From the NCBI GenBank assembly GCA_903858685.1, contig CAIOJR010000102.1, positions 1-34,865 on the forward strand: 34,865 nt of DNA, read 5' to 3'. This DNA is from an uncultured Caulobacterales bacterium. Lineage in GTDB: Bacteria > Pseudomonadota > Alphaproteobacteria > Caulobacterales > Caulobacteraceae. Shown piece after piece: positions 16,332 to 34,699 of this stretch; position 1 is the first letter of the stretch, and every line of letters begins with the position of its first letter. The notes beneath the pieces are model-generated. The model was not told where the DNA came from and ran no database searches. It worked only from the letters and a program-made list of their open reading frames with translations. A program made the translations under genes and the position numbers.

Positions 16332-16550
16332 TCACTTCAGACGATGCATCGCGTCCGAGGCAATCGGGCTGAGCCTTTGCGCCTCGCCCGCCGCGATCAT
16401 GTCCAACAGGTCGCGGCGCATGCGCGGGGCCCAGAAGTCCTTGATGTGCTGCGCTGTGTCTCGCGCGGCCAGATCGGGCGCGCCCTGAGACTGGAAAAAC
16501 GTCGCGATCTGGTTGGCCATGGTGATCAGGGTCTCGCGGGTCTGGCTCAT
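16332..16550 (-). CDS. fdsD: Formate dehydrogenase delta subunit
   Basis: The 72-residue protein matches the small FdsD subunit that helps assembly or stability of NAD-dependent Mo/W formate dehydrogenases. The core is TMANQIATFFQ, then QHIKDFWAPRMRRDLLDMIA. Its ATG overlaps the fdsA stop by 4 nt (ATGA), so the two are translationally coupled. Its position as the last fds gene is the usual order fdsG-fdsB-fdsA-(fdhD)-fdsD; here fdhD lies elsewhere, divergent from fdsG. Confidence 0.92.
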   Translation of the reverse strand: MSQTRETLITMANQIATFFQSQGAPDLAARDTAQHIKDFWAPRMRRDLLDMIAAGEAQRLSPIASDAMHRLK

Positions 16551-19381
16551 GAGGTCGCCTCGATCCGGCGGCTGCGACTGGCCTTTTCGGCATAGCTGAT
16601 CTGCCAGTCCACAGGACCATTGCCGCGCGACACCTGGACCGCCGTGACCTTGTATTCCGGACAGTTGGTGGCCCAGTCGGAGAAGTCCGTGGTGATCACA
16701 TTGGCCTGGGTCAGGGGGTGGTGGAAGGTGGTGTAGACCACGCCCGGCGCCACGCGATCGGTGATCTTCGCCCGTAGCGCCGTTTCACCCGCGCGGCTGG
16801 CCAGCTTCACCCAGTCGCCCGATTTGACGCCGCGCTCTTCGGCGTCGTGGGGGTGGATCTCCAGCAGGTCTTCCTCATGCCAGGCGGCGTTTTCAGTCCG
16901 GCGCGTCTGGGCTCCGACATTGTATTGCGACAGGATCCGTCCGGTGGTCAGAAGCAGTGGAAAGCGCGGCCCGACCTTTTCGTCGGTCGGCACATATTCG
17001 GTGACGACGAACCGACCCAGTCCGCGCACAAATCGCTCCATGTGCATCAGGGGCGTGCCCTCCGGCGCCGTCTCGTTGCACGGCCATTGGATCGATCCCA
17101 AAGCGTCGAGCCGGTCATAGCTGACGCCCGCGAAGGACGGCGTCAGGCGGGCGATCTCATCCATGATCTGCGAGGGATGCTGATAGTCCATGGGATAGCC
17201 CAGGGCGCGGGCCAGCATCTGGGTCACTTCCCAGTCGGCATAACCGTTTCTAGGGCTCATCACCCGGCGCACCCGCTGGATGCGGCGCTCGGCGTTGGTG
17301 AAGGTGCCGTCCTTCTCCAGGAAGGTCGAGCCGGGCAGGAAGACGTGCGCCAGATTGGCCGTCTCGTTCAGGAACAGGTCCTGCACCACCACGCATTCCA
17401 TGGCCGCCAGACCCGCCGCCACATGCTTGGTGTTGGGGTCGGACTGGAGGATGTCCTCGCCCTGAATATAGATCCCCTTGAACTCGCCCTCGATGGCGGC
17501 GTCCAGCATGTTGGGGATGCGAAGGCCGGGATCTGCGTCCAGGGTCACGCCCCAGTCGGCGCCGAACAGGTTGCGCGCGCCCTCGTCGGAGATGTGGCGA
17601 TAGCCGGACAGTTCGTGCGGGAAGCTGCCCATGTCGCACGCGCCCTGCACATTGTTCTGGCCGCGCAACGGGTTCACGCCCACGCCGGGTCTGCCGATAT
17701 TGCCCGTCGCCATGGCGAGGTTGGCGATGGCCATGACGGTGGTGGAGCCCTGGCTGTGCTCGGTCACGCCCAGACCGTAATAGATGGCGGCGTTGCCGCC
17801 TGTGGCGTAGAGGCGCGCCGCCGCGCGGACAGACTGCGCCGCCACGCCGGTGACCGCTTCAAGCGCTTCAGGACTGTTTTCCGGGCGCGCGACAAAGGCG
17901 GCCCAGTGCTGGAAGTCTTCCAGATCGCAGCGCTCGCGCACATAGGTCTCGTTCACCAGCCCCTCGGTCACGATCACATGGGCGATGGCGTCGAGCATGG
18001 CGACATTTGTGCCGGGCTTCAGGGCCAGATGATGGTCGGCGCGGATATGGGCCGACCTGACCAGATCAATCCGGCGCGGATCGATGACGATCAGCTTTGC
18101 ACCCTGCCTCAGTCGCTTCTTCATGCGCGATGCAAAGACGGGGTGGGCATCGGTCGGGTTGGCGCCCATGACCAGCATCACGTCGCAATGTTCCACAGAA
18201 TCGAAGTCCTGCGTGCCCGCCGAGGCGCCAAACGTGGTTTTCAGGCCATAACCGGTGGGCGAGTGACAGACCCGCGCGCAGGTGTCGACATTGTTGTTGT
18301 GGAACGCCGCGCGGATCAGCTTCTGCACCAGAAAGGTCTCTTCATTGGTGCAGCGGGACGAGGTGATGCCGCCGACCGAATCCTTGCCGTACTTGGCCTG
18401 GATTCGCCTGAACTCCGACGCCGTGTGGGATATGGCCTCGTCCCAGCTGACCACGGTCCAGGGATCGTCAGTCGAGGCGCGGATCATCGGCTCCAGCACC
18501 CGCTCGCGATGGGTGGCGTAGCCCCAGGCGAAGCGACCCTTGACGCAGGAATGCCCGCGATTGGCCTTGCCGTCCTTGTAGGGGACCATGCGGACCAGTT
18601 CCTCGCCGCGCATCTCGGCCTTGAAGGTGCAGCCGACCCCGCAATAGGCGCAGGTGGTGATGGCCGAATGCTCCGGTTGGCCGATCTCGATGACCTTGGT
18701 CTCGGTCAGGGTGGCGGTCGGGCAGGCCTGCACGCAGGCGCCGCAGGAGACACATTCGGAGCCCAGAAACAGTTCTGACTGGCCCGGTGACACGCGGGAG
18801 CCAAAACCGCGGCCGGCAATGGTCAGGGCGAAGGTCCCCTGTACGTCTTCGCACGCGCGAACGCAGCGCGAACAGACGATGCACTTGGCCGGGTCATAGG
18901 TGAAATAGGGGTTGGAGGCGTCAGTCGCCGCGTTCAGATGGTTGTGGCCCTGATAGCCGTAGCGCACCTCGCGCAGACCCACAGCGCCGGCCATATCCTG
19001 CAATTCGCAATCGCCATTGGCCGCGCAGGTCAGGCAATCGAGCGGGTGGTCGGAGATATAGAGCTCCATCACCCCCTTTCGCAGCTTGGCCAGCTTTGGC
19101 GTCTGGGTCGCGACGACCATGCCGTTGGCGACCGGCGTGGTGCACGAGGCCGGCGTTCCGGCCCGCCCCTCGATCTCCACCAGACACAGCCGGCACGAGC
19201 CGAACGCGTCCAGCATGTCGGTCGCGCACAGCTTGGGGATCTGCGTCCCCATCTGACCGGCCGCGCGCATGATGGAGGCGCCAGCGGGGACCGTGACCGC
19301 TTGCCCGTCAATTGTCAGGGTGACCGTCTCGGTCGCCACAGAGGCGGGCGTGCCAAAATCCTTTTCCGTGATCAGCGACAT
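16547..19381 (-). CDS. fdsA: NAD-dependent formate dehydrogenase, molybdopterin (alpha) subunit
   Basis: The 944-residue catalytic subunit oxidises formate to CO2 at a bis-MGD Mo or W centre. The N-terminal [2Fe-2S] domain has Cys52, Cys63, Cys66 and Cys80. A His/Cys [4Fe-4S] site follows (His112, Cys116, Cys119, Cys125), then two ferredoxin clusters (Cys167/170/173/177 and Cys210/213/216/220) and the Mo-domain cluster (Cys244/247/251/279). The active-site pair is Cys372-His373 in CARVCHSPTGYG, i.e. a Cys-ligated, not selenocysteine, enzyme. The C-terminal molybdopterin dinucleotide domain is complete (LLLTTGRILSQYNVGAQTRR). It starts 8 nt after fdsB. The electron route through FdsB/FdsG to NAD is established for this family. 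Confidence 0.96.
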   Translation of the reverse strand: MSLITEKDFGTPASVATETVTLTIDGQAVTVPAGASIMRAAGQMGTQIPKLCATDMLDAFGSCRLCLVEIEGRAGTPASCTTPVANGMVVATQTPKLAKLRKGVMELYISDHPLDCLTCAANGDCELQDMAGAVGLREVRYGYQGHNHLNAATDASNPYFTYDPAKCIVCSRCVRACEDVQGTFALTIAGRGFGSRVSPGQSELFLGSECVSCGACVQACPTATLTETKVIEIGQPEHSAITTCAYCGVGCTFKAEMRGEELVRMVPYKDGKANRGHSCVKGRFAWGYATHRERVLEPMIRASTDDPWTVVSWDEAISHTASEFRRIQAKYGKDSVGGITSSRCTNEETFLVQKLIRAAFHNNNVDTCARVCHSPTGYGLKTTFGASAGTQDFDSVEHCDVMLVMGANPTDAHPVFASRMKKRLRQGAKLIVIDPRRIDLVRSAHIRADHHLALKPGTNVAMLDAIAHVIVTEGLVNETYVRERCDLEDFQHWAAFVARPENSPEALEAVTGVAAQSVRAAARLYATGGNAAIYYGLGVTEHSQGSTTVMAIANLAMATGNIGRPGVGVNPLRGQNNVQGACDMGSFPHELSGYRHISDEGARNLFGADWGVTLDADPGLRIPNMLDAAIEGEFKGIYIQGEDILQSDPNTKHVAAGLAAMECVVVQDLFLNETANLAHVFLPGSTFLEKDGTFTNAERRIQRVRRVMSPRNGYADWEVTQMLARALGYPMDYQHPSQIMDEIARLTPSFAGVSYDRLDALGSIQWPCNETAPEGTPLMHMERFVRGLGRFVVTEYVPTDEKVGPRFPLLLTTGRILSQYNVGAQTRRTENAAWHEEDLLEIHPHDAEERGVKSGDWVKLASRAGETALRAKITDRVAPGVVYTTFHHPLTQANVITTDFSDWATNCPEYKVTAVQVSRGNGPVDWQISYAEKASRSRRIEATS

Positions 19382-19389
19382 GATGATGC

Positions 19390-20946
19390 CTACTCCGCCG
19401 CCTTAATGGAGGCTTGCGCCCCGAAATCTTCAGGGAAATGGGTGAGCGCGCTCATCACGGGATAGGGCGTGAATCCGCCCAGCGCGCACAGCGAACCGAA
19501 TTTCATCGTTTCGCACAGGTCCTCCAGCACCGCCAGATTAGCGGCGCGATCCTGGCCCGCGATGATACGGTCCAGCGTCTCCACGCCTCGGGTCGAGCCG
19601 ATCCGGCAGGGCGTGCACTTGCCGCAGCTTTCGATGGCGCAGAATTCCATGGCGAAACGGGCCTGACGGGCCATGTCGACCCTGTCATTGAAGACCACCA
19701 CGCCGCCATGGCCGATCAGGCCGCCGCGCTCAGTGAAGGCCTCGTAGTCAAAGGGCGTGTCGAACAGTTCGCGCGGGAAATAGGCGCCCAGCGGCCCGCC
19801 CACCTGCACAGCGCGCACGGCGCGGCCGGACAGGGTTCCCCCGCCAATATCGTCCACAAGATCGCCCAGGGTCACGCCGAACGGGGTCTCGAACAGCCCG
19901 CCATTGGCGATATCGCCCGCCAGCTGGATCGGCATGGTCCCGCGAGACCGGCCGACGCCAAAGTCGCGATAGGCGTCCGCCCCATTGGCCAGAATATAGG
20001 GCGCCGCCGCCAGGGACAGCACGTTGTTGATCACGGTCGGCTGGCCGAACAGGCCCTTGTGAGCGGGCAGGGGCGGCTTGGCGCGCACCTGACCGCGCTT
20101 GCCCTCGAGGCTTTCCAGAAGCGCCGTCTCCTCGCCGCAGACATAGGCGCCCGCGCCGACCCGCACCTCGATGTCAAAAGCGAAGCGCGTTCCCGCCACG
20201 GATGCGCCCAGAAGGCCGCCGCTCCGGGCGATTTCCAGCGCGCGGTTCAACATGCGGATGGCGAAGGGATATTCCGACCTGACATAGATGAACCCCAGGC
20301 TGGCCCCGACAGCATAGCCGCAGATCGCCATGCCCTCGATCAGGGTGAAGGGGTCCGCCTCCATCAACAGCCGGTCGGCGAAGGTGCCGGAATCGCCTTC
20401 ATCGGCATTGCAGACGACGTATTTCTGAGGCGCGGCGGCCTTGGCCACGGTGTCCCATTTCAGGCCGGTGGGAAAGCCGGCGCCGCCGCGGCCGCGCAGA
20501 CCGGACTGCTTTATCAGGTCGACCACCTGAGTGGGCGTGAGGGTAGTGGCCGCTTCTATCCCCGCCAGTCCGCCATGAGCGCGATAGTCGGCAAGGCTGA
20601 GAGGGTCGATCAGCCCCGCCCGGGCAAAGGTCAGCCGGGTCTGGCGCCGGAAGAAGGGCAGGGCGTCGGGCGAACCCAGTCGCAGCCGGTGCTCCGCGCC
20701 ATCAAGCAGCCCGGCGGCGACCAGACCGGCCACGTCTGACGGATCAACCGGGCCATAGCCGATGCGTCCCTGTGGCGTGTCCACCTCCACCAGGGTTTCC
20801 AGCTCGAACGCCCCGCGAGAGCCGTTGCGCACAATCTCGATGTCGCGGCCAAGACCGTGAGCAGCGAGCGTGATGGCGCTGGCGACTTGATCTGCGCCGA
20901 CCGCGACGGCAGCCATGTCGCAGGGGATATAGACCCGCTGGCTCAT
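19390..20946 (-). CDS. fdsB: NAD-dependent formate dehydrogenase, beta subunit (NuoF-like)
   Basis: The 518-residue diaphorase subunit carries FMN and the NAD site. Residues about 1-100 are an N-terminal thioredoxin-like extension characteristic of FdsB, followed by a NuoF-type core: NADH loop GLRGRGGAGFPTGLKWD (149-165), FMN region VCNADEGDSGTFADR (178-192), and [4Fe-4S] ligands Cys441, Cys444, Cys447 and Cys487 (ESCGKCTPCRIGSTRG). It receives electrons from FdsA and reduces NAD+. ATG at 20946 overlaps the fdsG stop by 4 nt (ATGA), so the fds genes form one operon. Confidence 0.95.
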   Translation of the reverse strand: MSQRVYIPCDMAAVAVGADQVASAITLAAHGLGRDIEIVRNGSRGAFELETLVEVDTPQGRIGYGPVDPSDVAGLVAAGLLDGAEHRLRLGSPDALPFFRRQTRLTFARAGLIDPLSLADYRAHGGLAGIEAATTLTPTQVVDLIKQSGLRGRGGAGFPTGLKWDTVAKAAAPQKYVVCNADEGDSGTFADRLLMEADPFTLIEGMAICGYAVGASLGFIYVRSEYPFAIRMLNRALEIARSGGLLGASVAGTRFAFDIEVRVGAGAYVCGEETALLESLEGKRGQVRAKPPLPAHKGLFGQPTVINNVLSLAAAPYILANGADAYRDFGVGRSRGTMPIQLAGDIANGGLFETPFGVTLGDLVDDIGGGTLSGRAVRAVQVGGPLGAYFPRELFDTPFDYEAFTERGGLIGHGGVVVFNDRVDMARQARFAMEFCAIESCGKCTPCRIGSTRGVETLDRIIAGQDRAANLAVLEDLCETMKFGSLCALGGFTPYPVMSALTHFPEDFGAQASIKAAE

Positions 20947-21407
20947 GCGAGCGCCTCCGCAATCAGACGCTCAAGCCGTTCGCCGGTGAGCCGCGCCACC
21001 GGCGTCTCATTGACCAGCGCGGCGGGGCCGGAGGCGCACAGGCCAAGACAATAGATTGGCTCCAGAGCCAGCGACCCGTCCGCGCTCGCGGCGCCCAGCG
21101 TCACGCCCAGTCCCTGTTCAAGCCGCGCGGCCGTGGCGTCTGAATCCCGCGCCTGGCAGGCCTCGGCCCGGCACAGCTTGATCACCTTGCGGGCGGGCGG
21201 GGTCTGGCGGAAGTCGGCATAGAAGGTGACCACGCCGTGCACCTCGGCGCGCGTCAGGTTGAGCGCCAGCGCGATCTGCGGCACGGCGTCCTTGGGGATA
21301 AAGCCGAAAGCATGCTGAACCTGATGTAAAATGGGCAGGAGCGCACCAGGGCGGGCCGCCTGGTCGGCCAAAATCGCCTGAAGCGTCGCTATCTCTTCGT
21401 CCCGCAA
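20943..21407 (-). CDS. fdsG: NAD-dependent formate dehydrogenase, gamma subunit (NuoE-like)
   Basis: The 154-residue subunit holds one [2Fe-2S] cluster through Cys79, Cys84, Cys120 and Cys124 (CRAEAC, then CLGLC), as in NuoE. The conserved LPILHQVQHAFGFIP and AEVHGVVTFYADF segments are intact. I place the start at a TTG (21407) because GGGAG lies 6 nt upstream and residues from RDEEIATLQ onward match the family. A longer TTG start at 21458 would add 17 unconserved, Arg/Trp-rich residues and would begin inside an inverted repeat. First gene of the fds operon, divergent from fdhD. Confidence 0.9.
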   Translation of the reverse strand: MRDEEIATLQAILADQAARPGALLPILHQVQHAFGFIPKDAVPQIALALNLTRAEVHGVVTFYADFRQTPPARKVIKLCRAEACQARDSDATAARLEQGLGVTLGAASADGSLALEPIYCLGLCASGPAALVNETPVARLTGERLERLIAEALA

Positions 21408-21424
21408 ACCAATCTCCCAAAGAC

Positions 21425-21460
21425 AGTTGCGCCGCCAGCGCCGAAATTCACGGCGCAACT
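21425..21460. promoter_or_regulatory. Inverted repeat between fdsG and fdhD, candidate operator
   Basis: AGTTGCGCCG (21425-21434) and CGGCGCAACT (21451-21460) form a perfect 10-bp dyad with a 16-nt spacer. It lies in the 114-nt region between the divergent fdsG (TTG 21407) and fdhD (ATG 21522) genes, and so could bind a regulator controlling both. It also argues against the longer fdsG start. No T-run follows either arm, so a terminator is unlikely. Confidence 0.6.
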
Positions 21461-22379: not shown

Positions 22380-22858
22380 GTCAGACGCCCGATATCAAAA
22401 TCCGCCTGTTCCAGCCTGACGACGGCGAAGCCTTTCGGACGCTGAACGAAGCCTGGATCACCCGGCTGTTTGCCTTGGAGGACAGCGACCGCAAGGTGCT
22501 CGGAGATCCGCAAGGCATGATCATCGCGCGGGGCGGCCAGATCCTGATGGCGATTGCGGGCGACGAAGCGGTGGGCGCCGTGGCCTTGCAACGTGTCGAT
22601 GAGACCACGCTGGAGCTGGCCAAGATGACAGTCAGCGAGGCGCTGCGCGGAACAGGGCTGGGACGCAGACTGATGGAGGCCGCCATTGCTCAGGCGCGAG
22701 AAATGCGCGCGCAAAAACTCTATCTGGAAAGCAACACCAGCCTGAAGCCCGCGATCAGCCTCTATCAGGCGGTCGGATTTCGCACGCTTGTACCGGGGGA
22801 GGGCGGCGCCTCGCCCTATGCGCGGTGTGATATCCGCATGGAGCTGTCGCTCAACTGA
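22376..22858 (+). CDS. GNAT-family N-acetyltransferase
   Basis: The 160-residue protein has the acetyl-CoA-binding motif A (LAKMTVSEALRGTGLGRRLM, residues 81-100, with RGTGLG at 91-96) and motif B (LYLESNTSLKPAISLYQAVG). The acceptor is unknown; the fold family acetylates amines on small molecules or proteins. Its ATG overlaps the fdhD stop (ATGA), so it is co-translated with fdhD, although no role in formate metabolism is known to me. Confidence 0.87.
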   Translation: MSQTPDIKIRLFQPDDGEAFRTLNEAWITRLFALEDSDRKVLGDPQGMIIARGGQILMAIAGDEAVGAVALQRVDETTLELAKMTVSEALRGTGLGRRLMEAAIAQAREMRAQKLYLESNTSLKPAISLYQAVGFRTLVPGEGGASPYARCDIRMELSLN

Positions 22859-23495: not shown

Positions 23496-24344
23496 TCACG
23501 CGCCCAGAATTGTGGCGTGATGGCCGATGTGATCATCGATGAAGGTCTGGATGAAGTAATAGCCGTGGTCGTAACCGGCATGGCGGCGGACAATGACCGG
23601 ACGTCCAGAGGCGGCGGATGCGGCCTCAAGGGCTTCAGGCTTGAGTTGCTCCGCCAGGAACGGGTCGGACAGGCCCTGATCGACAAGAATGGCGGGCCCG
23701 GCAGGGGCTTTCGCCAGAAGGGCGGATGCGTCGTGAGCCGCCCAGCTTGCCGCGTCCCCGCCCAGATAGCGCGTAAACGCCTTCTGCCCCCAGGGGCAGT
23801 CCACCGGATTGGAGATGGGCGCAAAGGCGGACAGGCTCTTGTACAGGTCCGGGCGCTTCAGGCCGAGGGTGATGGCGCCATGCCCGCCCATGGAATGCCC
23901 GAACAGGCCCTGACGCGCCAGATCGACGGGGAAGTTGGCCGCGACGGCGGCCTGCAGGTCGGTGGTAATGTAGGTCTGCATCTGGAAATGCTGCGACCAA
24001 GGCGCCTGAGTGGCGTCGATATAGAAGCCCGCGCTCTGACCAAAGTCCCATTCGTCCGGCGTGTCCGGCACGCCTTCACCGCGCGGGCTGGTGTCGGGCG
24101 CGATCAGGATGACCCCGGCTTCGGCGGCGGCGCGAAAGGCGCCTGCCTTGGTCATGAATGTGTCCGGCGTGCAGGTCAGGCCCGCCAGATAGGTCAGCAC
24201 GGGGCGGGGGCCGGATTTTGCAGCTTCAGGGATAAACGTCCCGAAGGTCATGGTGGTTCCGGTCGCGGCGGAGGCGTGTTTCCAAAATCCCGCGACGCCG
24301 CCGAAACAGCCGTGCTCTGACACGCGTTGAATAGAAGCGGTCAT
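23496..24344 (-). CDS. fghA: S-formylglutathione hydrolase
   Basis: The 282-residue esterase hydrolyses S-formylglutathione to formate and glutathione. The catalytic triad is visible: Ser151 in GHSMGGHGA, Asp227 in DQGLSDPFL and His260 in GYDHGYYFIQTFIDDHIGHH. Length and the opening SEHGCFGGVAGFWKHAS match FghA/FrmB/esterase D. Its ATG shares one base with the stop of the formaldehyde dehydrogenase gene (TGATG), so the two are coupled. It completes formaldehyde oxidation to formate, which the FDS complex encoded nearby can oxidise further. Confidence 0.95.
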   Translation of the reverse strand: MTASIQRVSEHGCFGGVAGFWKHASAATGTTMTFGTFIPEAAKSGPRPVLTYLAGLTCTPDTFMTKAGAFRAAAEAGVILIAPDTSPRGEGVPDTPDEWDFGQSAGFYIDATQAPWSQHFQMQTYITTDLQAAVAANFPVDLARQGLFGHSMGGHGAITLGLKRPDLYKSLSAFAPISNPVDCPWGQKAFTRYLGGDAASWAAHDASALLAKAPAGPAILVDQGLSDPFLAEQLKPEALEAASAASGRPVIVRRHAGYDHGYYFIQTFIDDHIGHHATILGA

Positions 24345-25450
24345 CAGTAGGTCACCACGGTGCGGATGCTTTCGCCGTGATGCATGAGGTCGAAAGCCTT
24401 GTTGATGTCGCTATGGGGCAGGATGTGGGTGACCAGATCGTCGATATTGATCTTGCCGTCCATGTACCAGTCTACAATTCTGGGCACGTCGGTGCGGCCC
24501 TTGGCGCCGCCGAAGGCTGAGCCCTTCCAGACGCGGCCGGTGACCAGCTGGAACGGGCGGGTGGCGATTTCCTTGCCGGCGCCGGCGACGCCGATGATGA
24601 CGCTTTCGCCCCAGCCCCGGTGGCAGCACTCCAGCGCCTGCCGCATCACATCCACATTGCCGATGCATTCAAAGCTGTAGTCCACGCCCCATTCGGTCAG
24701 GGCCTGAATGGCGCCGACCACGTCGGGCGTGTCCTTGGGGTTGATGAAGTGGGTCATGCCGAACTGGCGGCCCAGAGCCTCACGGGCGGGGTTCAGGTCC
24801 ACGCCGATGATCATGTCTGCGCCCACCAGTCGCGCGCCCTGCACGACATTGAGGCCGATGCCGCCCAGTCCGAAGACCGCCACGGTCGAGCCGGGCCGCA
24901 CCTTGGCCGTATTGATCACCGCGCCCACGCCCGTGGTCACGCCGCAGCCGATATAGCAGATCTTGTCGAACGGCGCGTCCTTGCGCACCTTGGCGACCGC
25001 GATCTCGGGCAGGACCGTATAGTTGGAGAAGGTCGAGCAGCCCATATAGTGAAACACCGGCTTGCCCTTGTAGGAGAAGCGGCTGGTCCCGTCCGGCATG
25101 ACCCCCTTGCCCTGGGTGCCGCGAATGGCCACGCACAGATTGGTGCGGCCCGACAGACAGAACTTACAATTGCGGCATTCGGGGGTGTAGAGCGGGATGA
25201 CGTGGTCGCCGACCGCGACAGATGTCACGCCGGGCCCGACCTCGACCACCACGCCTGCGCCCTCATGGCCCAGGACCGACGGGAACAGGCCTTCCGGATC
25301 GCCGCCCGACAGGGTGAAGGCGTCAGTGTGACAAACACCGGTGGCCTTGATCTCGACCAGCACCTCGCCCGCCTTGGGGCCTTCAAGGTCGAGGGTTTCC
25401 AGAACAAGCGGCTGGCCAGCTTCAAACGCAACAGCGGCAACGGTCTTCAT
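24344..25450 (-). CDS. frmA: S-(hydroxymethyl)glutathione dehydrogenase / class III alcohol dehydrogenase
   Basis: The 368-residue zinc enzyme oxidises S-hydroxymethylglutathione, formed from formaldehyde and glutathione, to S-formylglutathione with NAD+. Catalytic zinc ligands are Cys40, His62 and Cys169; structural zinc ligands are Cys92, Cys95, Cys98 and Cys106; the NAD motif is GLGGIG at 194-199. The ATG at 25450 (AGGGAAA upstream) gives the normal family length; a longer open frame adds 41 unconserved residues. It lies 68 nt downstream of the flavin oxidase gene on the same strand, with no terminator-like hairpin seen in the gap, so it probably belongs to the Rieske operon. Confidence 0.95.
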
Positions 25451-25518: not shown

Positions 25519-26700
25519 TTAGCCGGACAGCGCCTGATCCGACGGCGCTTGCCAGCCCTTCTGGCGACGCCAATCCGGATCAAGTCCGTCGAATCTTGAC
25601 AGTTTGAGCTTGTCGATGTCGGCAAAGCTGCATTTGCCGTCCACGATCAGGTCACGCAGGGCATGGCCGGACGCAGGCGACAGGCCAAAGCCGACGCCGC
25701 TCATACTGGCCAGGGTGACATTGCCCGGGTCGTCCAGCCGGTCAAGGATCGGTCGACCATCCGGCGTGGTCTCAATGACGCCCGCCCAGCTTCTGATGAC
25801 CCGAAGGTGGGCGGCTTTCGGGAACAGGGCCGCAAGCCGCGCCGCCAGATTTCGCGCAATGGGTGTCGTCGGCCGCACCTTGGGCCCTGACAGATCAATG
25901 TTGATCCACTCATGCGGGCCGCCGCCATAGGCCAGGTTTCCTCGCGCGGTCTGGCGTCCATAGAGGCCATTGCCGTCAACGCCGCGCAGGTCCATGAGCG
26001 GGCAGGGCTCGGTGACGATCATCTCGGCGCGGGCGGGCGCCATGGGCATGGCGATGTTCAGCATCGCCGCCAGCTTGTCGCTTTGCGGGCCTGCAGCGAT
26101 CAAGACCTGATCGCAGCCCAAGGCGCCGCGCGAGGTGATGACTTCGGTGACCTTGCCGTCCACCCCGCATTTGAAGCCTGTGACCAAAGTGTTTTGAAGG
26201 ATGCGCCCTCCATGGTCCTGCAAGGCCCACGCATAGGCCTGCGCCGTTCTCTGCGGATTAGCCTGGCCGCCGGAATGGACCTTGATGCCGCCCACAGCAT
26301 TGTCGCCGGCCAGCGGGACCATGCGGCGCACATCATCGCCACTGATGTCGTCCACCCTGACGCCGTGGCGGCGAATGACGGAAGCGATATATTGGTAATA
26401 TCGATGTTGGGCTTCGTTGATGGCGAAAATGATCTTGCCAGACTGATGCTCCGTCTCATAGCCCAGCAGGTCGCGCATTTGCGGCCAGAGGCGCTGCTCC
26501 TCGGCGAACAAGGGGCTTTGGTAGTGTGAGCATCCGCCGCCATTTCGGCCTGACGCCTCCATGCCCACCACGCCCTTGTCCAGCACGAGCACGTCAACGC
26601 CGTCTCTTGCCAGCCACCATGCGGTTGAGAGGCCGGTGACGCCCGCGCCGATCACGATGACGCTGGCGCCGCGCGGTGTTTCTGTTTCCACGATCGTCAT
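25519..26700 (-). CDS. FAD-dependent oxidoreductase of the DAO family (HcnC/OoxB/sarcosine oxidase beta-like)
   Basis: The 393-residue flavoprotein has the N-terminal FAD motif [20 protein letters not shown] (Gly18, Gly20, Gly23) and the DAO segments [12 protein letters not shown] and [18 protein letters not shown] near the C-terminus, then a typical [18 protein letters not shown]. Family members oxidise glycine, sarcosine, D-amino acids, proline or opines at the C-N bond. The ATG at 26700 is one base after the stop of the upstream HcnB/OoxA-like gene. That pairing is typical of two-subunit membrane-linked oxidases (HcnBC, OoxAB, D-hydroxyproline dehydrogenase). In this operon the likely substrate is a secondary amine left by Rieske demethylation, which is inference. 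Confidence 0.85.
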
Positions 26701-26701
26701 C

Positions 26702-28186
26702 TCACCAGACCTTTGCGCCGCTGATGTAGTCCACGTGAATCGCGGCCTCGTCGGTATCGATGGTGTCGTAGGGAATCCACTGCTCCGGGATGCCGAACCA
26801 GACATCCCAGTTGGCCTTGGTCTGCGCGGTTTCCGCGGTCTCCGCCAGGACCTTGAGCGGCAGGGGGCGAACCGGCGCGCGATAACCGGCCAGAGCTATG
26901 GCGTCCAGGGGCGTCTCCGTTCCAATCGCCATGGCCATCGCCGTCTGCTCTCGGCAGCGCCGGGCTTGGCAGGGCCCCATGCAGGCGCGGGTCAGGCGTT
27001 TGATCTGGTCTTGATTGAGCGGCCCATCCTTGCGCAACCGGGTCAGGCTCTGTGCGCGCTGGGAGCTTGACGGCGCGCCAAGATATCTTGGCGGTCGGAG
27101 GTCGAGAAGGTCGCCGCGCGTGACGTCTTCGCACTGACAAAGCATGGTGTCGGACGGGGTCTGGTCCATGATCGTGCGCATCCAGTGCATTGCGCGGTCG
27201 AGGTCGGCGGCCACGCCGGTCACCTCTCCAACGGCGCGGACGCCGGGGATGGAGGTGGCGCCCGAGGCGTCGACCTGGGGCACGAAGCCTCCAAGCTGGG
27301 GCGCGCGCAGAATAGCGGCATGGGCGGCGTCCAGGAGTTCGATCTGGGGGACGAGGCCGATGGCCAGGGCGACCGTATCGCAGTCGAATGTGGTTTTTTC
27401 GCCCCCGTTCGTGCTCTGAACGACCAGGCGGGCAATCCCGTCGACCCCGCCTGTCGCTTCCACCGGGATCGTCGAGGTGAGCACCGGACAGCCGATCGCG
27501 GAGGCGCGACCTGGATCGCCTTCAATCTGGTCATGAGCCTCAATCAGCGCCACGATCCTGACGCCTCTGGACAAGGCCAGTTCAGCCAGATCAAGGGCGA
27601 GGTCGCCAGAGCCGAGGATGACGACATTGCGCCCGGCGAAGGCGTCGTAGAGGCTGAGGAGCGCGGACATTGCACGAGCGCCGACGACGCCTGGCTGGTC
27701 CCAGCCGGGGAATCCGAGCACCAGATCGCGCGCGCCCGTGGCGATAACCGCCTTGTCGAACGCCACCATCCAGGCCTTTTCCCGGTCCGCAAGGCCGATC
27801 ATGGAGGCGGGCAGGGTCTGGAGATGGGCGCCATTTGCGTAGAGGCCCCAGCAGGACACGCCCAGTTCAAGCTCTATGCCAGCCTCGATGGCGGCTTCCA
27901 GATCCGGTCGTGCGGCAAGCACCTGCTCCATCAGGCGTGCGGGATTCTGGACCGCCGCCGTGGCGCGCCCGCCGAACAAATAGGGCACGTCCAGTCCGAT
28001 CAGGCCTGGATCGAGCGGGTGTTCGTCCACCAGCAGCACAGTTGATCCGGCCTGCGCAGCTCGCATCGCCTCTGCGACACCGGCGGCGCCAGCGCCGACG
28101 ACCACCAGATCATACTTCCGCTCGGGCGTGATGTGTCGTCCGACCTGCGACCATTTGTCGAACTCATTCGGCGCTGTTGTGCTCAT
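26702..28186 (-). CDS. NAD(P)/FAD-dependent oxidoreductase with C-terminal [2Fe-2S] domain (HcnB/OoxA-like)
   Basis: The 494-residue protein has an N-terminal Rossmann FAD motif VVVGAGAAGVAEA (Gly31, Gly33, Gly36), a second dinucleotide motif VVILGSGDLALDLAELA near 188-204, and a BFD-like [2Fe-2S] region with Cys350 and Cys352 (CQCEDVT) and CMGPCQARRC (Cys402, Cys406, Cys411). This is the architecture of HcnB, OoxA and the alpha subunit of D-hydroxyproline dehydrogenase. After the usual family end near YRAPVRPLPLKVLA it carries about 45 further residues ending HVDYISGAKVW, which I do not recognise. Its ATG overlaps the PLP-enzyme stop by one base (TGATG). It most likely pairs with the DAO-type subunit encoded next. 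Confidence 0.83.
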   Translation of the reverse strand: MSTTAPNEFDKWSQVGRHITPERKYDLVVVGAGAAGVAEAMRAAQAGSTVLLVDEHPLDPGLIGLDVPYLFGGRATAAVQNPARLMEQVLAARPDLEAAIEAGIELELGVSCWGLYANGAHLQTLPASMIGLADREKAWMVAFDKAVIATGARDLVLGFPGWDQPGVVGARAMSALLSLYDAFAGRNVVILGSGDLALDLAELALSRGVRIVALIEAHDQIEGDPGRASAIGCPVLTSTIPVEATGGVDGIARLVVQSTNGGEKTTFDCDTVALAIGLVPQIELLDAAHAAILRAPQLGGFVPQVDASGATSIPGVRAVGEVTGVAADLDRAMHWMRTIMDQTPSDTMLCQCEDVTRGDLLDLRPPRYLGAPSSSQRAQSLTRLRKDGPLNQDQIKRLTRACMGPCQARRCREQTAMAMAIGTETPLDAIALAGYRAPVRPLPLKVLAETAETAQTKANWDVWFGIPEQWIPYDTIDTDEAAIHVDYISGAKVW

Positions 28187-29448
28187 CAGATGGCTTCCAG
28201 GGCCTGGGCGAAATCGTCCATCAGATCATCCGGGTGCTCGAGTCCGATCGACAGTCGCAATGTGGAGTCGTCTATGCCCACAGCTTCGCGGCGCGCCTTG
28301 TCGATCTGGTAGTGGGTGGTGGAGGCCGGGTGGCAGATCAGGCTCTCCGCCCCGCCCAGACTGACCGCCAGCTTCACAATGCGGAATCGGTCGAGCATTC
28401 GGAACGCCTCCGCCTCGCCGCCCTTGATCTTGAAGGAAAAGGTGGAGCCTGCCCCCCTGCATTGGCGGTCATAGACCGACCGCTCGCGCGATCCCTCTTC
28501 GAGAAAGCCGAAAAAGGTCACGGACTTGATTTTCGGGTGGTCTCGCAACCAGGTCGCCAGGGTGAGCGCGTTGGCGCAGGCGCGTTCGGTGCGGATATGC
28601 AGCGTCTCGAATGATCTTAGCAGCAGCCAGCAGGTATGCGGGTCGGAGTGGTTTCCCAGCATGGTCCGCAGGGTTTTCAGGGGGGCGATCAGGTCTTTGC
28701 GTCCGCTGACGCCGCCCGCCAGCAGGTCTGAATGCCCGCCGCAATATTTGGTCAGGGCGGTCATGCACAGATCCGCGCCCTGCGACAGGGGGGATTGAAG
28801 GAACGGGCCAAGGAAGGTGTTGTCGACCACCACCAATGGGCGACGGCCTTGCTTGGCGCCGACCTCCTCGGCGATCCGGACGGCGAGCCCTATGTCCGAA
28901 ATGACAGATGTGGGATTTGCCGGGGTCTCGACCAGTATGACGCCCAAGGTCCCTGCCGCCATGGCCTGCGCCGCGACCGAGCGGACATGGTCGGGGTCCG
29001 CGCCGTCTGTGTAACCGAAGCTCTGCACGCCAAATTGCGCGAAGTGGCTATTCAGGAACCAGTCGACCCCGCCATAGAGCGGCCGGCCATAGATCACCGT
29101 ATCCCCGGGCTTCAGGTTCGCCTGCAACAGGGTGGTCATGGCCGCCATGCCGGATGAAAAGACCGCAGAATCCTCGCCGCCGTCCAGCGCGGCCAGACGG
29201 GCCTCCACCATGTCCAGATTTGGGTGGCTCAACCGTGCGTAAATATATCCCGGCGTCTCGCCGCCGGGCATTTCCACGCCTTCGAAGAAGTTGGCGTGAG
29301 TGTCCTTGGCGAATTGGGCGTTGGGATAGACAAAGGTGGAGGACAGATAGAGCGGCGGCTTCGCCGCTCCAGACGCCGTGGCGGGATCGTAACCCGTGCC
29401 GATGGTGATCGTGTCCAGGCGGGCGGTCTTGGGAGGTGTCGCGGCCAT
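28186..29448 (-). CDS. Cystathionine gamma-synthase-family PLP enzyme
   Basis: The 420-residue fold-type I PLP enzyme belongs to the Cys/Met-metabolism family (gamma-synthases, gamma- and beta-lyases). Visible features are Tyr70 and Arg72 (YARLSHPN, phosphate contact from the neighbouring subunit), SSGMAA at 98-103, Tyr125 stacking on PLP, Asp209 (VVVDNTF) and the Schiff-base Lys234 in ALTKYCGGHSD. The exact reaction (gamma-replacement, gamma-elimination or other) cannot be read from sequence. The ATG at 29448 shares a base with the Rieske gene stop, and its own stop shares a base with the next ATG, so the gene is embedded in the demethylation operon rather than a methionine operon. Confidence 0.85.
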   Translation of the reverse strand: MAATPPKTARLDTITIGTGYDPATASGAAKPPLYLSSTFVYPNAQFAKDTHANFFEGVEMPGGETPGYIYARLSHPNLDMVEARLAALDGGEDSAVFSSGMAAMTTLLQANLKPGDTVIYGRPLYGGVDWFLNSHFAQFGVQSFGYTDGADPDHVRSVAAQAMAAGTLGVILVETPANPTSVISDIGLAVRIAEEVGAKQGRRPLVVVDNTFLGPFLQSPLSQGADLCMTALTKYCGGHSDLLAGGVSGRKDLIAPLKTLRTMLGNHSDPHTCWLLLRSFETLHIRTERACANALTLATWLRDHPKIKSVTFFGFLEEGSRERSVYDRQCRGAGSTFSFKIKGGEAEAFRMLDRFRIVKLAVSLGGAESLICHPASTTHYQIDKARREAVGIDDSTLRLSIGLEHPDDLMDDFAQALEAI

Positions 29449-30680
29449 CAGTTCGCCGCCTCGACGACGGATCCAGCGCATTTGTCCAGAAACTCGCGCG
29501 CCTTGTCACAGTACCAATCAATGAAGCGGATCACCAAGACTTCAGCCTCTTCACTATAGGGCCCCGGACGGTAGCCCGCGCCATTAACGCCGCGTTGGTT
29601 GTTCTCGACCAGATCACGGTCTTGCAGGTTTGTTGTGTTCCACAGCTCGGTCAGTGCGTCTATGTGATAGTCTACGCCCTCTACGGCGTCACCGTGGACC
29701 AGCCATTTGGCGGTGACGATCGTCTCTGACGGGCTGATCGGCTCTGCGGTGAAGATCAGGACATAGTCGCCCACGGCATGGCAAAAATTGTTGGGTTCAA
29801 GCGCCCAGCGGAGCGAGCCGATATCGAGGTCCCCCGTGTCCGTCATCGGCCTGTTCACGAGCGGCGCGCCATCCATCGACATGGACTGGAAGCCTTCGTT
29901 CAGGGGGAAGCGTATCGCCTGCCACCAGTCGCCGTCGGAAGGGCCGATCGGAAGGCCCAGTTTCGCCATCCGAGCCTCATATTGGGCCTGGTGCGGATCT
30001 TCGCCATAGTCGAAATAGGCTTTGGCGGCGACCGGGAAGCTGCGGGCGAGTTCAGGATGGCCGGTCGAGCAGTGGTAGCATTCCCGCGCGTTTTCCATGA
30101 CCAGCTTCCAGTTGCCCTTCTCAACAAGGGTCGCCTCCGCCGCCAGTTTCGCGCTCGCCAGGTTGTGAGGGCCAAGCAGGGGTTCGATCGCCTGGCGAAA
30201 GGGCGTGAAGTCGGGCGCGTCCTGCGACAGGCACACATAGACGACGCCCGCGGCTGTTTCGCATTTCACTGGATTGAGGGCGTAATTCGTCGCGTCAAAG
30301 TCGTCGCCCATCCGGGTGGCGCTCACCAGTTGGCCGGAGAGGTCGTAGGTCCAGCGGTGGTAAGGACAGACCAGCCGATTGGTCTTTCCCTTTCCTTCGG
30401 GGCAGATCTGCGCGCCGCGATGGCGACAGCTATTGTGAAAGGCGCGGATGTCGCCATTGCGGTCGCGCACGATGATCAGCGGGCAGCCGCCAATGGTGAC
30501 AGATACATAACTGCCTGAGCGGGGCAATTCCGCTTCTGTCGTGGCAAGCAGCCACGACCGGCCGAATATCGCCTGCAGGTCAAAGGCGAATATCTGCGGG
30601 TCGTTGTAAAGCGCCTGCGGCAGGCTGAACCCGGGCTTGCGAGCCTCAAACAAAGTTCGCACCGTATCCAGATTGTACAT
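29448..30680 (-). CDS. Rieske non-heme iron oxygenase, GbcA/CntA-like N-demethylase type
   Basis: The 410-residue oxygenase subunit has a [2Fe-2S] Rieske site (Cys85-x-His87 and Cys105-x2-His108 in CRHRGAQIC and CPYHRW). The mononuclear iron site has His203 and His208 (ECYHCSTGH), with a third acidic ligand likely around Asp354-Asp356. The bridging residue before the His pair is Glu200 rather than the Asp usual in ring dioxygenases. Glu here is characteristic of the quaternary-amine monooxygenases acting on carnitine, glycine betaine and similar compounds. The tail ENNQRGVNGAGYRPGPYS also fits that group. ATG at 30680 has AAGGAG six bases upstream. It is first in the operon and divergent from a LysR gene. 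No reductase gene is adjacent. Confidence 0.85.
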   Translation of the reverse strand: MYNLDTVRTLFEARKPGFSLPQALYNDPQIFAFDLQAIFGRSWLLATTEAELPRSGSYVSVTIGGCPLIIVRDRNGDIRAFHNSCRHRGAQICPEGKGKTNRLVCPYHRWTYDLSGQLVSATRMGDDFDATNYALNPVKCETAAGVVYVCLSQDAPDFTPFRQAIEPLLGPHNLASAKLAAEATLVEKGNWKLVMENARECYHCSTGHPELARSFPVAAKAYFDYGEDPHQAQYEARMAKLGLPIGPSDGDWWQAIRFPLNEGFQSMSMDGAPLVNRPMTDTGDLDIGSLRWALEPNNFCHAVGDYVLIFTAEPISPSETIVTAKWLVHGDAVEGVDYHIDALTELWNTTNLQDRDLVENNQRGVNGAGYRPGPYSEEAEVLVIRFIDWYCDKAREFLDKCAGSVVEAAN

Positions 30681-30745
30681 CGTCACTCCTTGCGTCGTCG
30701 CAAAAGATGGCACGCCATTCGGCTCCGGTCGCAATCGTATTTCTG

Positions 30746-30876: not shown

Positions 30877-31827
30877 ATGAACATCAATCGGCGCTGGCTA
30901 CCGCTCAACGCCCTGCGCGCTTTTGAAGCCGTGGGACAGAACCTCAGCTTCACGGCGGCGGCGCAAGCCTTGCACGTCAGCCAGAGCGCGCTGAGCCGCC
31001 ACGTGATCAGCCTGGAGGAGTTGTTGGGCCGCCAGTTGCTGGAGCGTCGCTCAAACGGTCTGGTGCTGACCCATGCCGGCGCGTCGCTGCTGCCGGTCGT
31101 CCACAAGTCGTTTGATCGCCTCGAACAGTCCCTCAACGGCATCAGGGCCGGAGGGAAGGGGGTTCGCACGCTTCGGGTTCACCTGCCGCCCTCGCTCCTT
31201 CAACAGATGGCCTTGCCGATTTTGCAGGACTTTCGCCAGGAGTTTCCTGACATCTTGATCGATGTGTCGTCCTCCAGCGTCACCGGCCTGCCGTCGCAGG
31301 ATCTGGACGTGGCGGTGGTTTATGATCGGCCCAACTCCGACGACCGGGTCACAGATCTGTTGTGGATGGTGAGGGTGACGCCAGTCTGTTCCCCTCAGGT
31401 TCGGGAACGCAATCAGGGTAAATCATTGTCGGAGTTCATCGCCGGCAATGAACTCCTGCATGTGAAGCTTGACGGAGAGCCGCGCGGACTTTTGTGGTCG
31501 AATTACGTGAAGCAATGTGGGATCGCCGCGGACACCGATCGCGGCCTGGCCTTCGATACAGCAATTTCAGCGGTGCAATATGCTATTGCCGGGGGGGGCG
31601 TGGCGTTGGCCGATGTAGACATGTTCGCGCCGGAACTTGAAAATGAGAAACTGGTCCAGCCCTATAGCGAGGTCTTCGCGGATGGTTTTGGGTACTATTT
31701 GAAATTCCACGCCGAAGATCTGTCGGATCCGGTGATCGCATTGTTCCGCAGGTGGATGATCTCACGTTTTTCGCAACAAATGCCCGTTCGCGCGGCAACG
31801 CTGCTCGGCGCCGCCACCCAGCCCTAG
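30877..31827 (+). CDS. LysR-family transcriptional regulator (GcvA-like)
   Basis: The 316-residue protein has an N-terminal winged helix-turn-helix (LNALRAFEAVGQNLSFTAAA, then LHVSQSALSRHVISLEELLG, about residues 8-50) and a LysR substrate-binding domain (about 90-300). The WLPLNALRAFEAVGQNLSFT opening is GcvA-like. The ATG at 30877 aligns with the family start; an open frame continues 38 codons upstream but is Arg/Cys-rich and unlikely. It is divergent from the Rieske operon across 196 nt containing LysR-type dyads, so it probably controls that operon in response to its substrate or an intermediate. Confidence 0.92.
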   Translation: MNINRRWLPLNALRAFEAVGQNLSFTAAAQALHVSQSALSRHVISLEELLGRQLLERRSNGLVLTHAGASLLPVVHKSFDRLEQSLNGIRAGGKGVRTLRVHLPPSLLQQMALPILQDFRQEFPDILIDVSSSSVTGLPSQDLDVAVVYDRPNSDDRVTDLLWMVRVTPVCSPQVRERNQGKSLSEFIAGNELLHVKLDGEPRGLLWSNYVKQCGIAADTDRGLAFDTAISAVQYAIAGGGVALADVDMFAPELENEKLVQPYSEVFADGFGYYLKFHAEDLSDPVIALFRRWMISRFSQQMPVRAATLLGAATQP

Positions 31828-32227
31828 GTCGGCGATCCCAAATACAGATGCGGCCATCGGAAAATGGCATGGGGCGGCGCCCGCGGCCGATATTTTCTGA
31901 TCTTGCGACATGTCAAATTTCCAACGGCAGAAAGCGACATGCAGTCGCAAATGCGATTCAGGATTTTACAAAAAGCTTTTAAAACAACATTTTGAAGGAA
32001 ATGTTTCAGCGCGGGGCAGGCGCTTTGGGCGCGCATTTGCGCCAAATATTTCATCGAATTTGGTTAGAAATTTTTACCAACCATCTAAAATTGGTCAATA
32101 GAGGGCCGTATTGCCGAACCCAGCCCTTTGACCTCTCATCGCAAATGCAATGGCGCCAGACGTGCGACCGCGCCGACCGTTAGGTGGCGGAGGAACGCAC
32201 GCTGGTAGCCGACTTTGGGGGATCGGC
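31828..32227. other. 400-nt intergenic region before the TonB-dependent receptor
   Basis: I see no convincing gene here. The middle and right part is clearly more AT-rich than its surroundings. It contains several dyads: GACATGTC (31907-31914), GCGAC-N5-GTCGC (31934-31948), the run AAAAGCTTTT (31971-31980), AACATTT-N6-AAATGTT (31986-32005) and TTGGT-N11-ACCAA (32060-32080), followed by another TTGGT at 32091. A weak hairpin with a short T-run (CGGCC at 31851 pairing with GGCCG at 31885, then TATTTT) could end the LysR transcript. The rest is probably the receptor promoter and its operators. Confidence 0.55.
32060..32080. promoter_or_regulatory. Dyad TTGGT-N11-ACCAA upstream of the TonB-dependent receptor
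   Basis: Five-base inverted arms flank an AT-rich 11-nt spacer, so the inner T and A form a T-N11-A pattern typical of LysR-type boxes. It lies 148-168 nt upstream of the receptor ATG. The half-site differs from the dyad beside the LysR gene, so shared control is only a possibility. Confidence 0.4.
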
Positions 32228-34699
32228 ATGACGAAACATAATCTCAGTTTATCCACGGCCGTCGTGGCCTTGGCGATTTTCGGTGCAGGCGCGACGGGGG
32301 TCAGCGCGGCGGATGTGTCCGCCAAACCTGCCGATACATCAGCGACAACGGTTCAGGATCTCATCGTGACGGCTTCGCGTCGCGACGAAAAGCTTCAGGA
32401 CGTGCCGATCGCGCTTGACGCCTTTGGCGGCAAGGCGCTCCAGCAACTGGGCATCACCAATTTCGAGCAGCTCTTGCTCAGCTTGCCGGACGTGCACGCC
32501 GCTGGCCGCGGTCCGGGGCAGAACAGCGTCTATATTCGTGGCCTGTCGACCGACACCGCCTCCATTCTGATCGGCGGCGCAGCCGGCACCAATCCCAATG
32601 TCGCCATCTATTTGGACGACATCGCTGTATCCATGCCCGTGCGCAACCTGGACATCTACGCGGTGGATCTTGACCGGGTTGAAGTGCTGAAGGGGCCGCA
32701 GGGAACCACATTCGGCGCCAGTTCGATGGGCGGCGCGGTGCGCTACATCACCGCCAAGCCGAACCTCTCCGACTTCCATTATGGTTTCTCGACCAGCTAT
32801 TCCGAAAACGCCAAGGGCGGCGACAGCTCGTCGGCCAATGGTTATGTCAACCTGCCGATCATAAAGGACAAATTCGCCGTTCGCCTGGTGGCCTATTCCG
32901 ACAACCAGGGCGGATATATCGACAATGTCGCGGGCACTTACCAGATGCCCGTCACCAGCCCCGGTTTCGGCGGCAATTCATGGGCGGCGTCGATCTCCCG
33001 CCCCATCGTCGACAATTCAACCCTGGTCAAAAAGAACTTCAACACCGCTGACTACAAGGGCTTCCGGGTCGCGGCCAAATACCAGATCAATGAAAACTGG
33101 AGCGTCGAAGTTCAGGATCTGACCCAGTCGCTGAACACCGAAGGGGTCTTCGACTATGATCCTACGCTGGGCGATTTGAAGGCGAAGCGGTTCAACCCGG
33201 ACAATCTGGCCGATAAGGGCAATGTTCTGGAGTGGAATGTGAACGGCCGGTTGGGGCAACTCGATCTGGTCTATACAGGCGGCTATGTCGAGCGCCGCGC
33301 GGTCCAGAACACCGACTATACCGCCTATTCCAATTCCGGCGGCTATGCAGTGTACTACAATTGTAATTACGCAGTTTATCACGCTGTGGCCTACAAGCAG
33401 GCGCCTGCGGCCGGGGCGGCTTGTTTCTCGCCCAAGAACCACGTGCACAATGACACCCGCAACACCCGCTTGACCGAGGAGCTTCGCATTTCAACGCCCA
33501 GCGACTGGCGTTTGCGCGGCAGCGCCGGGGTCTATTACGACACTGACCACGTCTATGATCAGGACGAGTTCGCCTATGAAGGGTCGAGCGCCGGCGCGGG
33601 TTTCCCAGGGGCCAATGAACCCTTCTCCACCGCCACGGCGATCAACCGCTACATCACGGATCCGAGCGTCCAGTTCGTCAATGATGTGACCCGCAGGGAT
33701 CGCCAATATGCGGTCTATGGCGAAGCCGCCTATGACATCATACCCAAGAAGCTGACGGCCAGCATCGGCCTGCGCTACTACGACCAACAGGTTGGAATTG
33801 CAGGCTCCGCCAGCTATGGCAGCCGTTTCAGCCAGAGCGCAGATCACGGGATTTCGTTGCAAAACTACGCTCCGGTCACCGAAACCGGCGTGATTCCGAA
33901 GCTTAACCTGACCTATCACGCCACAGACGACGTGATGATCTATGGCACCTATTCTGAAGGCTTCCGTCCCGGCGGGTTCAATCGTGGCGGCGGGAACGTC
34001 AACTCCAAGACCGGGTTTGTCGTGCCTGTGGGTTACGGGACGGACTCGGTGAAGAACTATGAACTGGGCTGGAAAACCCAGTGGCTTGACCGCACCCTGA
34101 CCCTGAACGGCGCAGCCTATTTCATCCAGTGGGACAAGTTGCAGTCACAGATCTACCGTCCGGCGGACAGCTTCCTGACCTTTGTGCAAAACGCCGCCAA
34201 TGCCGAGATCAAGGGACTGGAAACGGATGCGATCTGGCGGCCCGTTCACGGGCTGAGCCTCAGCGCAAATGTGGCCTATACGCACAGCGAGCTGACCTCG
34301 ATCCTGCCCGGCATCAGCAATCTGCGCCCGGTGGGCAGCCAGCTGGCCTTGACGCCGGAACTGCAGGGAACCTTCGTGGCCCGTTACGAGCATGAGTTCG
34401 TTCCGGAATATACGAGCTTCTTCCAGGGCACGGCGACAGCGGCGGGCCGTATGCTCTCCACCATTGACCGGGGCGCGGACACGACCGGTACGCCCTTGCA
34501 TAACGATATCGAGCTTCATCCCTACACGACGGGCGCAATCTCGGCGGGTGTGATGAAGGACGGCTGGACGGTGGAACTGTTCGTCAACAATGTAACGGAT
34601 GCGCGTCCGGAACTTTACGCCAATGCCTCGGACCGGACCCTTCGGTACACCACCACGCCGCCGCGCACGGTGGGCGTCCGGTTCTCCGCCAAGTACTAG
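32228..34699 (+). CDS. TonB-dependent outer-membrane receptor
   Basis: The 823-residue protein begins with a signal peptide (MTKHNLSLSTAVVALAIFGA, cleaved near VSAAD) and a TonB-box/plug entry TVQDLIVTASRRDEKLQDVP. The plug includes NSVYIRGLS and VEVLKGPQGTTFGASSMGGA, and the beta-barrel has the receptor motifs TYSEGFRPGGFNRGG and VKNYELGWKTQ before the C-terminal strand RTVGVRFSAKY. It imports a ligand too large or scarce for porins, using TonB energy. The ATG at 32228 (GGGGGAT upstream) opens the signal peptide; a longer frame adds 26 unlikely residues. Given the LysR gene and Rieske operon next door, it may import their substrate. A strong terminator follows. Confidence 0.93.
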   Translation: MTKHNLSLSTAVVALAIFGAGATGVSAADVSAKPADTSATTVQDLIVTASRRDEKLQDVPIALDAFGGKALQQLGITNFEQLLLSLPDVHAAGRGPGQNSVYIRGLSTDTASILIGGAAGTNPNVAIYLDDIAVSMPVRNLDIYAVDLDRVEVLKGPQGTTFGASSMGGAVRYITAKPNLSDFHYGFSTSYSENAKGGDSSSANGYVNLPIIKDKFAVRLVAYSDNQGGYIDNVAGTYQMPVTSPGFGGNSWAASISRPIVDNSTLVKKNFNTADYKGFRVAAKYQINENWSVEVQDLTQSLNTEGVFDYDPTLGDLKAKRFNPDNLADKGNVLEWNVNGRLGQLDLVYTGGYVERRAVQNTDYTAYSNSGGYAVYYNCNYAVYHAVAYKQAPAAGAACFSPKNHVHNDTRNTRLTEELRISTPSDWRLRGSAGVYYDTDHVYDQDEFAYEGSSAGAGFPGANEPFSTATAINRYITDPSVQFVNDVTRRDRQYAVYGEAAYDIIPKKLTASIGLRYYDQQVGIAGSASYGSRFSQSADHGISLQNYAPVTETGVIPKLNLTYHATDDVMIYGTYSEGFRPGGFNRGGGNVNSKTGFVVPVGYGTDSVKNYELGWKTQWLDRTLTLNGAAYFIQWDKLQSQIYRPADSFLTFVQNAANAEIKGLETDAIWRPVHGLSLSANVAYTHSELTSILPGISNLRPVGSQLALTPELQGTFVARYEHEFVPEYTSFFQGTATAAGRMLSTIDRGADTTGTPLHNDIELHPYTTGAISAGVMKDGWTVELFVNNVTDARPELYANASDRTLRYTTTPPRTVGVRFSAKY

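Follow-up and report, generated by a model that had tools for sequence, protein, structure and literature searches.

A clade of cystathionine gamma-synthase-family enzymes in a probable betaine-type demethylation operon of Alphaproteobacteria

Why should a gene of the cystathionine gamma-synthase (CGS) family be embedded between the genes of a demethylation operon? The question is raised by a contig of an uncultured Caulobacterales bacterium (CAIOJR010000102.1, assembly GCA_903858685.1), which we analyzed as a single window of 34,865 nucleotides. One of its open reading frames encodes a pyridoxal phosphate (PLP) enzyme of 420 amino acids. According to the original prediction, this gene shares one base with each of its neighbors and is therefore coupled to Rieske and flavin-oxidase genes. 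The overlaps are confirmed by the raw sequence. Both junctions read TGATG: base 29448 belongs to the stop codon TGA of the Rieske gene and to the ATG of the PLP gene, and base 28186 belongs to the TGA of the PLP gene and to the ATG of the next gene.

The core operon has the order LysR (divergent), Rieske, PLP, SoxA-like, DAO (Table 1). The "flavin oxidase" of the original prediction corresponds to two genes, for a SoxA-like alpha subunit and a DAO-family beta subunit. The operon further contains genes for formaldehyde dehydrogenase and S-formylglutathione hydrolase. These two genes follow DAO on the minus strand and precede a cluster for an NAD-dependent formate dehydrogenase (21458-16547). 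Together, these genes describe how formaldehyde is released and then oxidized to CO2. The TonB-dependent receptor possibly takes up the substrate. The Rieske reading frame opens at 30734, and its start was placed near 30680 using codon bias and homologues; the DAO frame opens at 26805, with the start placed near 26700. The formaldehyde genes are split from the formate dehydrogenase cluster by an RcnB-like gene (22914-23354, minus strand) and two plus-strand frames (21522-22858). Relatives of one of these frames (21522-22379) accompany formate dehydrogenase genes in loci L119 and L121.

Table 1. Features annotated in the window
Feature	Coordinates	Strand	Evidence
PLP enzyme, Cys/Met-metabolism (cystathionine gamma-synthase) family, PRK07049 subgroup, operon-specific clade	28186..29448	-	PF01053, NF005455, 24-member clade
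Rieske oxygenase alpha subunit, glycine-betaine/stachydrine demethylase type	29448..30680	-	PF00848, PF00355; GbcA model 439 bits
SoxA-like alpha subunit of two-subunit FAD amine dehydrogenase (Pyr_redox_2 + C-terminal Cys-rich 2Fe-2S-type region)	26702..28186	-	PF07992, PF17806
DAO-family beta subunit of the same amine dehydrogenase	25519..26700	-	PF01266 209 bits; nearest solved structure 1y56_B
S-(hydroxymethyl)glutathione dehydrogenase (formaldehyde oxidation)	24344..25450	-	TIGR02818 633 bits, over cut-off; also in loci L009, L010
S-formylglutathione hydrolase	23496..24344	-	TIGR02821 410 bits, over cut-off
NuoE-like (2Fe-2S thioredoxin-like) subunit of NAD formate dehydrogenase	20943..21458	-	PF01257
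NuoF-like subunit of formate dehydrogenase	19390..20946	-	PF01512, PF10589
Formate dehydrogenase alpha subunit (molybdopterin)	16547..19381	-	TIGR01591 939 bits, over cut-off; relatives adjoin operon in L119, L121
Divergent LysR-type regulator (ORF from 30763)	30877..31827	+	PF00126, PF03466; in 21/24 loci compared
TonB-dependent receptor, beyond LysR	32150..34699	+	PF00593, PF07715; relative also adjoins operon in L011

Homologues of the PLP protein were searched for in genomes of the class (289), the order (398), the phylum (398) and two families (200 and 250), in a plasmid collection and in GTDB contigs. The protein of the window and 23 others, 54-84% identical to it, form a clade of 24. 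Its hosts are lake and soil bacteria of Caulobacterales, Sphingomonadaceae, Rhizobiaceae and one further alphaproteobacterial family; the order of G040 is represented by one genome only. Novosphingobium capsulatum HAMBI_0103 has the operon on a plasmid. The Gammaproteobacteria sampled gave no match to the PLP protein at 1e-125.

A phylogeny combined with an analysis of genome neighborhoods had been proposed as a check of the original prediction, and its outcome does not refute the prediction: all 24 close homologues lie in Rieske operons; in the DNA fetched, no more distant homologue does. The adjoining Rieske genes are 50-70% identical, and in G040 a reductase gene lies between Rieske and PLP. 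The SoxA-like and DAO genes are present in 22 of the 24 loci; locus L012 stops at a contig edge, and L011 lacks both. At the Rieske-PLP and PLP-SoxA-like junctions, the genes of most loci overlap by 1-14 bases, and the predicted coupling is conserved in the clade. About 66 relatives with at most 53% identity are standalone, with no operon-type Rieske gene beside them in the fetched DNA (mostly 1.5 kb flanks). Ten relatives with wider flanks also had no operon; there were one remote Rieske match (28%) and one remote DAO match (27%).

In a tree of 63 proteins, the clade is split from the outside group with bootstrap 100 and SH-aLRT 100, and linkage to the operon is a trait that changes once. A quick tree of 93 PLP proteins was also made. 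A Fisher test on loci assumes independence, which the loci violate, so the single clean split is the better statement. Judging from these sequences, the linkage of Rieske and PLP genes is not a matter of chance. Seven residues (Y41, A47, H51, L73, L243, T311, and Y380) are invariant in the clade and absent from the outside group. Since the split has full support and the clade has invariant residues of its own, the clade looks specialized.

The PLP protein belongs to the Cys/Met metabolism family of PLP enzymes (PF01053, 327.7 bits against a cut-off of 27). It also passes the cut-off of NCBIfam NF005455 (PRK07049, "cystathionine gamma-synthase family protein"; 510.7 against 504), and its PLP-site residues are the same as in that family, to which structures 5ijg and 7swh belong. 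In contrast to the rest of PRK07049, it falls into a separate clade that has its own invariants and is 43-56% identical to the outside relatives. Its scores are below the cut-offs of the CGS equivalogs (TIGR02080, 254.9 against 504.55; PRK07811, 271.8 against 513) and far below those of the sulfhydrylase models of NCBIfam. The claim that the catalytic lysine and the PLP contacts are intact proved right: Lys234 is aligned with Lys211 of methionine gamma-lyase (MGL), and Tyr70, Arg72, Asp209, Ser363 and Arg398 correspond to its Tyr59, Arg61, Asp186, Ser340 and Arg375. Thus both Lys234 and the alpha-carboxylate-binding Arg398 are kept. An AlphaFold model of the protein (shallow alignment, mean pLDDT 62) was set aside.

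The nearest solved structures for the Rieske protein are 3n0q, 4qup and 3vca (about 1e-113), the last of which is stachydrine demethylase; carnitine monooxygenase follows at about 1e-35. C85, H87, C105, H108, H203 and H208 are invariant, and the Rieske Cys/His ligands and the His/Asp region of the mononuclear iron are kept. These structures and ligands make the protein a betaine-type Rieske demethylase in the broad sense. The SoxA-like model (pLDDT 72) matches the alpha subunits of sarcosine oxidase (1vrq/2gag) and of L-proline dehydrogenase (1y56_A), and C350, C352, C406 and C411 are invariant. The full SoxA of heterotetrameric sarcosine oxidase has about 960 amino acids with a C-terminal GcvT-like half and is accompanied by SoxD and SoxG. 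The SoxA-like protein does not belong to this type: it has 494 amino acids and scores 100 bits with TIGR01372 against a cut-off of 1164.

Many operon loci add a third amine oxidase or genes of formaldehyde and formate oxidation. Most Sphingomonadaceae operons continue into heterotetrameric soxBDAG. In the Rhizobiaceae operons and in G040, a gene for a monomeric N-methyltryptophan-oxidase-like enzyme takes the soxBDAG position, which hints at an N-methyl amino acid with a side chain rather than at sarcosine. On a simple reading, three N-demethylating enzymes would serve three methyl groups. G040 additionally has a GbcB-like reductase gene inside the operon and an adjoining ABC importer of the choline/glycine-betaine type.

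From the operon, the clade, the enzyme families and the catalytic residues, all read from sequence, we infer the order of steps, the type of reaction and the substrate of a putative pathway. The substrate would be an alpha-amino-acid betaine with a leaving group on the gamma carbon. Acting on the trimethylammonium group, the Rieske enzyme would release a first N-methyl as formaldehyde, the SoxA-like/DAO dehydrogenase would take the second, and a sarcosine-oxidase-type enzyme encoded in the operon or elsewhere would remove the third. CGS-family enzymes require a free alpha-amino group to form the external aldimine, and the lyase is therefore expected to follow the last demethylation. The primary amino acid obtained in this way would then form a Schiff base with PLP, and its gamma substituent would be eliminated or replaced in a last step that yields 2-oxobutyrate and ammonia, or homoserine. 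The nearest named families of the PLP enzyme are of the gamma-elimination and gamma-replacement types. Formaldehyde would be oxidized through the glutathione route and formate dehydrogenase. We assign a probability of roughly 0.6 to this logic, i.e., to an alpha-betaine being demethylated and then cleaved at its side chain by the CGS-family enzyme. Locus L011, with Rieske and PLP and without SoxA-like and DAO, counts against it.

All of the enzyme families are already known. The operon resembles glycine betaine demethylation (GbcAB, dimethylglycine dehydrogenase, SoxBDAG) in the sequence of a Rieske enzyme, an FAD enzyme and a sarcosine-oxidase-type enzyme, and in the oxidation of formaldehyde. 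It differs in the Rieske protein, which is under the cut-off of the GbcA model NF058607 (439 against 670 bits), in a second step by the SoxA-like/DAO pair instead of an enzyme of DgcA or DMGDH type, and in the added CGS-family lyase. Stachydrine demethylation by Stc2 (3vca) provides a homologous Rieske enzyme that acts on an alpha-amino-acid betaine. To our knowledge, the stachydrine pathway has no PLP lyase, and proline needs none. None of the open-licence papers searched describes the combination of a betaine demethylation operon with a CGS-family clade of its own. Even with some other substrate, a CGS-family clade fixed in such an operon in four alphaproteobacterial families would define a new and directly assayable pathway, and the operon clade gives a lead to the function of a part of PRK07049.

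Which betaine could it be? The betaine lipid DGTS contains no phosphorus and occurs in the membranes of algae, fungi and phosphate-starved bacteria. Its deacylated head group, glyceryl-N,N,N-trimethylhomoserine, is the one abundant natural compound known to us that has both an alpha-trimethylammonium group and a gamma leaving group. It is the leading candidate for the substrate, and we tentatively suggest, as a possibility rather than a probability, that the operon degrades this head group by three N-demethylations and a PLP-dependent cut of the glycerol-homoserine ether. The operon would then reverse the synthesis of the head group, first undoing the methylation by BtaB and then the ether link made by BtaA. 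Some results speak against this proposal. Of 22 genomes searched, 21 of which carry the operon, only two have BtaA; therefore, there is no link to turnover of the cells' own DGTS. The neighborhood of the operon also has no conserved gene for glycerol kinase, a specific lipase or 2-oxobutyrate, and the hydrolases that do occur there differ from lineage to lineage. If the DGTS proposal is true, it closes a gap in the recycling of carbon and nitrogen in lakes and oceans and supplies marker genes. The open-licence papers searched gave no description of a bacterial route that uses the DGTS head group.

A canavanine gamma-lyase was reportedly described by Hauth and co-authors in 2022. Both the synthesis and the cleavage of O-substituted homoserines are known among CGS-fold enzymes, and by analogy this would be a precedent for an O-linked substrate. 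According to PMC10018355, canavanine gamma-lyase converts canavanine into hydroxyguanidine and homoserine; it is thus a PLP lyase acting on an O-substituted homoserine and setting its O-substituent free. The likeness lies in the reaction described, and canavanine is not N-methylated. Another case is RtxA, whose C-terminal part synthesizes dihydrorhizobitoxine, a serinol ether (PMC3222319). This dihydrorhizobitoxine synthase domain has the CGS fold and handles a homoserine ether of a three-carbon alcohol close to glycerol, but it is biosynthetic and O-acetylhomoserine-sulfhydrylase-like, unlike the role proposed here. Free glyceryltrimethylhomoserine does exist as a metabolite, since algal ABHD1 releases it from lyso-DGTS (PMC11711679).

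The original prediction emphasized sulfur: the demethylated amino acid was expected to have a sulfur or other gamma-leaving group. The same pathway could act on methionine betaine or on an N-methylated methionine- or homocysteine-like acid, with the PLP enzyme freeing a thiol and the reaction chemistry unchanged. Apart from PRK07049 itself, no named family is closer than the MGLs, both by score and in the PDB ranking, but the score (TIGR01328, 331.5 bits) is below the cut-off of 549.7, and the MGL-specific Cys116, Lys240 and Asp241 are replaced with Gly127, Arg261 and Thr262. The score and the missing residues rule out that the protein is itself an MGL. There are no sulfur-handling genes in the operon neighborhoods examined. 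As far as we know, methionine betaine is rare. We therefore regard a sulfur substrate as possible and rather unlikely; an oxygen-linked one, for instance the glycerol ether in the DGTS head group, fits at least as well. The demethylation pathway and the likely action on a demethylated amino acid are thus supported, and the emphasis on sulfur, also in view of the O-substituted homoserine precedents, is not.

The host genome has a second betaine-type cluster on contig C40 (L136 2582-19900, continuing into L137). It contains a second GbcA-like gene, a GbcB-like reductase gene, a choline-type ABC importer whose binding protein and permease are fused, a DMGDH/GcvT-like fusion and two soxBDAG sets. 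One set is canonical; SoxB of the second is 75-77% identical to the operon-linked type. Since the host has this separate cluster of choline/glycine-betaine type, the operon of the window is a parallel pathway rather than one for plain glycine betaine. The window operon has neither a third amine oxidase nor a reductase, which counts against the proposed pathway; both would have to be supplied from contig C40, possibly by its reductase and its second sarcosine oxidase.

Plasmids of Paracoccus and Ancylobacter carry a Rieske-reductase-SoxA-DAO module without PLP (L139 5005-11221, L140 6004-13621, L141 5004-11206). Its DAO and SoxA-like proteins are 59-61% and 38-40% identical to those of the operon. 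The region includes betaine-type ABC importers and, in place of PLP, a nitrilase-type hydrolase and a GlxA-type regulator. This is probably a further uncharacterized betaine pathway. The module occurs without PLP, so demethylation would be the general part and the PLP enzyme the substrate-specific one.

The same comparison bears on a role of the PLP protein apart from substrate cleavage, as a generic methionine/cysteine enzyme of PRK07049 that supplies homocysteine or salvages amino acids and so balances one-carbon or methionine metabolism during demethylation. Most members of the broad NF005455 family, which is common across Alphaproteobacteria, are standalone, and the family names are inferred only. 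Nevertheless, such a role seems quite improbable, given a deep and fully supported clade that has invariants of its own and is always tied to a demethylase, three further full-length CGS-family genes outside the operon in the host genome, and a demethylation module without PLP in Paracoccus. Even less probable is a beta-elimination by the PLP enzyme, with a substrate that is either an alpha-betaine whose leaving group sits on the beta carbon or another N-substituted, opine-like amino acid handled by SoxA-like/DAO: opine oxidases share the architecture of this pair, which resembles amine dehydrogenases of sarcosine-oxidase and L-proline-dehydrogenase type, and CGS-fold enzymes include beta-lyases, but the betaine-type Rieske enzyme and the G040 importer indicate a quaternary amine, and the nearest named families are gamma-enzymes.

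Several loci differ in the surroundings of the operon. L011 (6933-11846), from a genome of the same genus, keeps LysR, Rieske and PLP and has aspartyl-protease/PDZ and acyl-CoA dehydrogenase genes in place of SoxA-like and DAO. Just past LysR, L009 and L010 (6434-7582 in both) have a gene for a gamma-butyrobetaine/TmpA-like 2-oxoglutarate dioxygenase, another type of enzyme acting on trimethylammonium substrates. In Rhizobiaceae and one sphingomonad, genes for a PhnD-like binding protein and an FA_desaturase-family protein are paired near the operon (L088 3002-4807, L112-L115, L120). An RtxC-like desaturase was considered for this pair; the pair is also found away from the operon, in L143 and, with the genes further apart, in L144.
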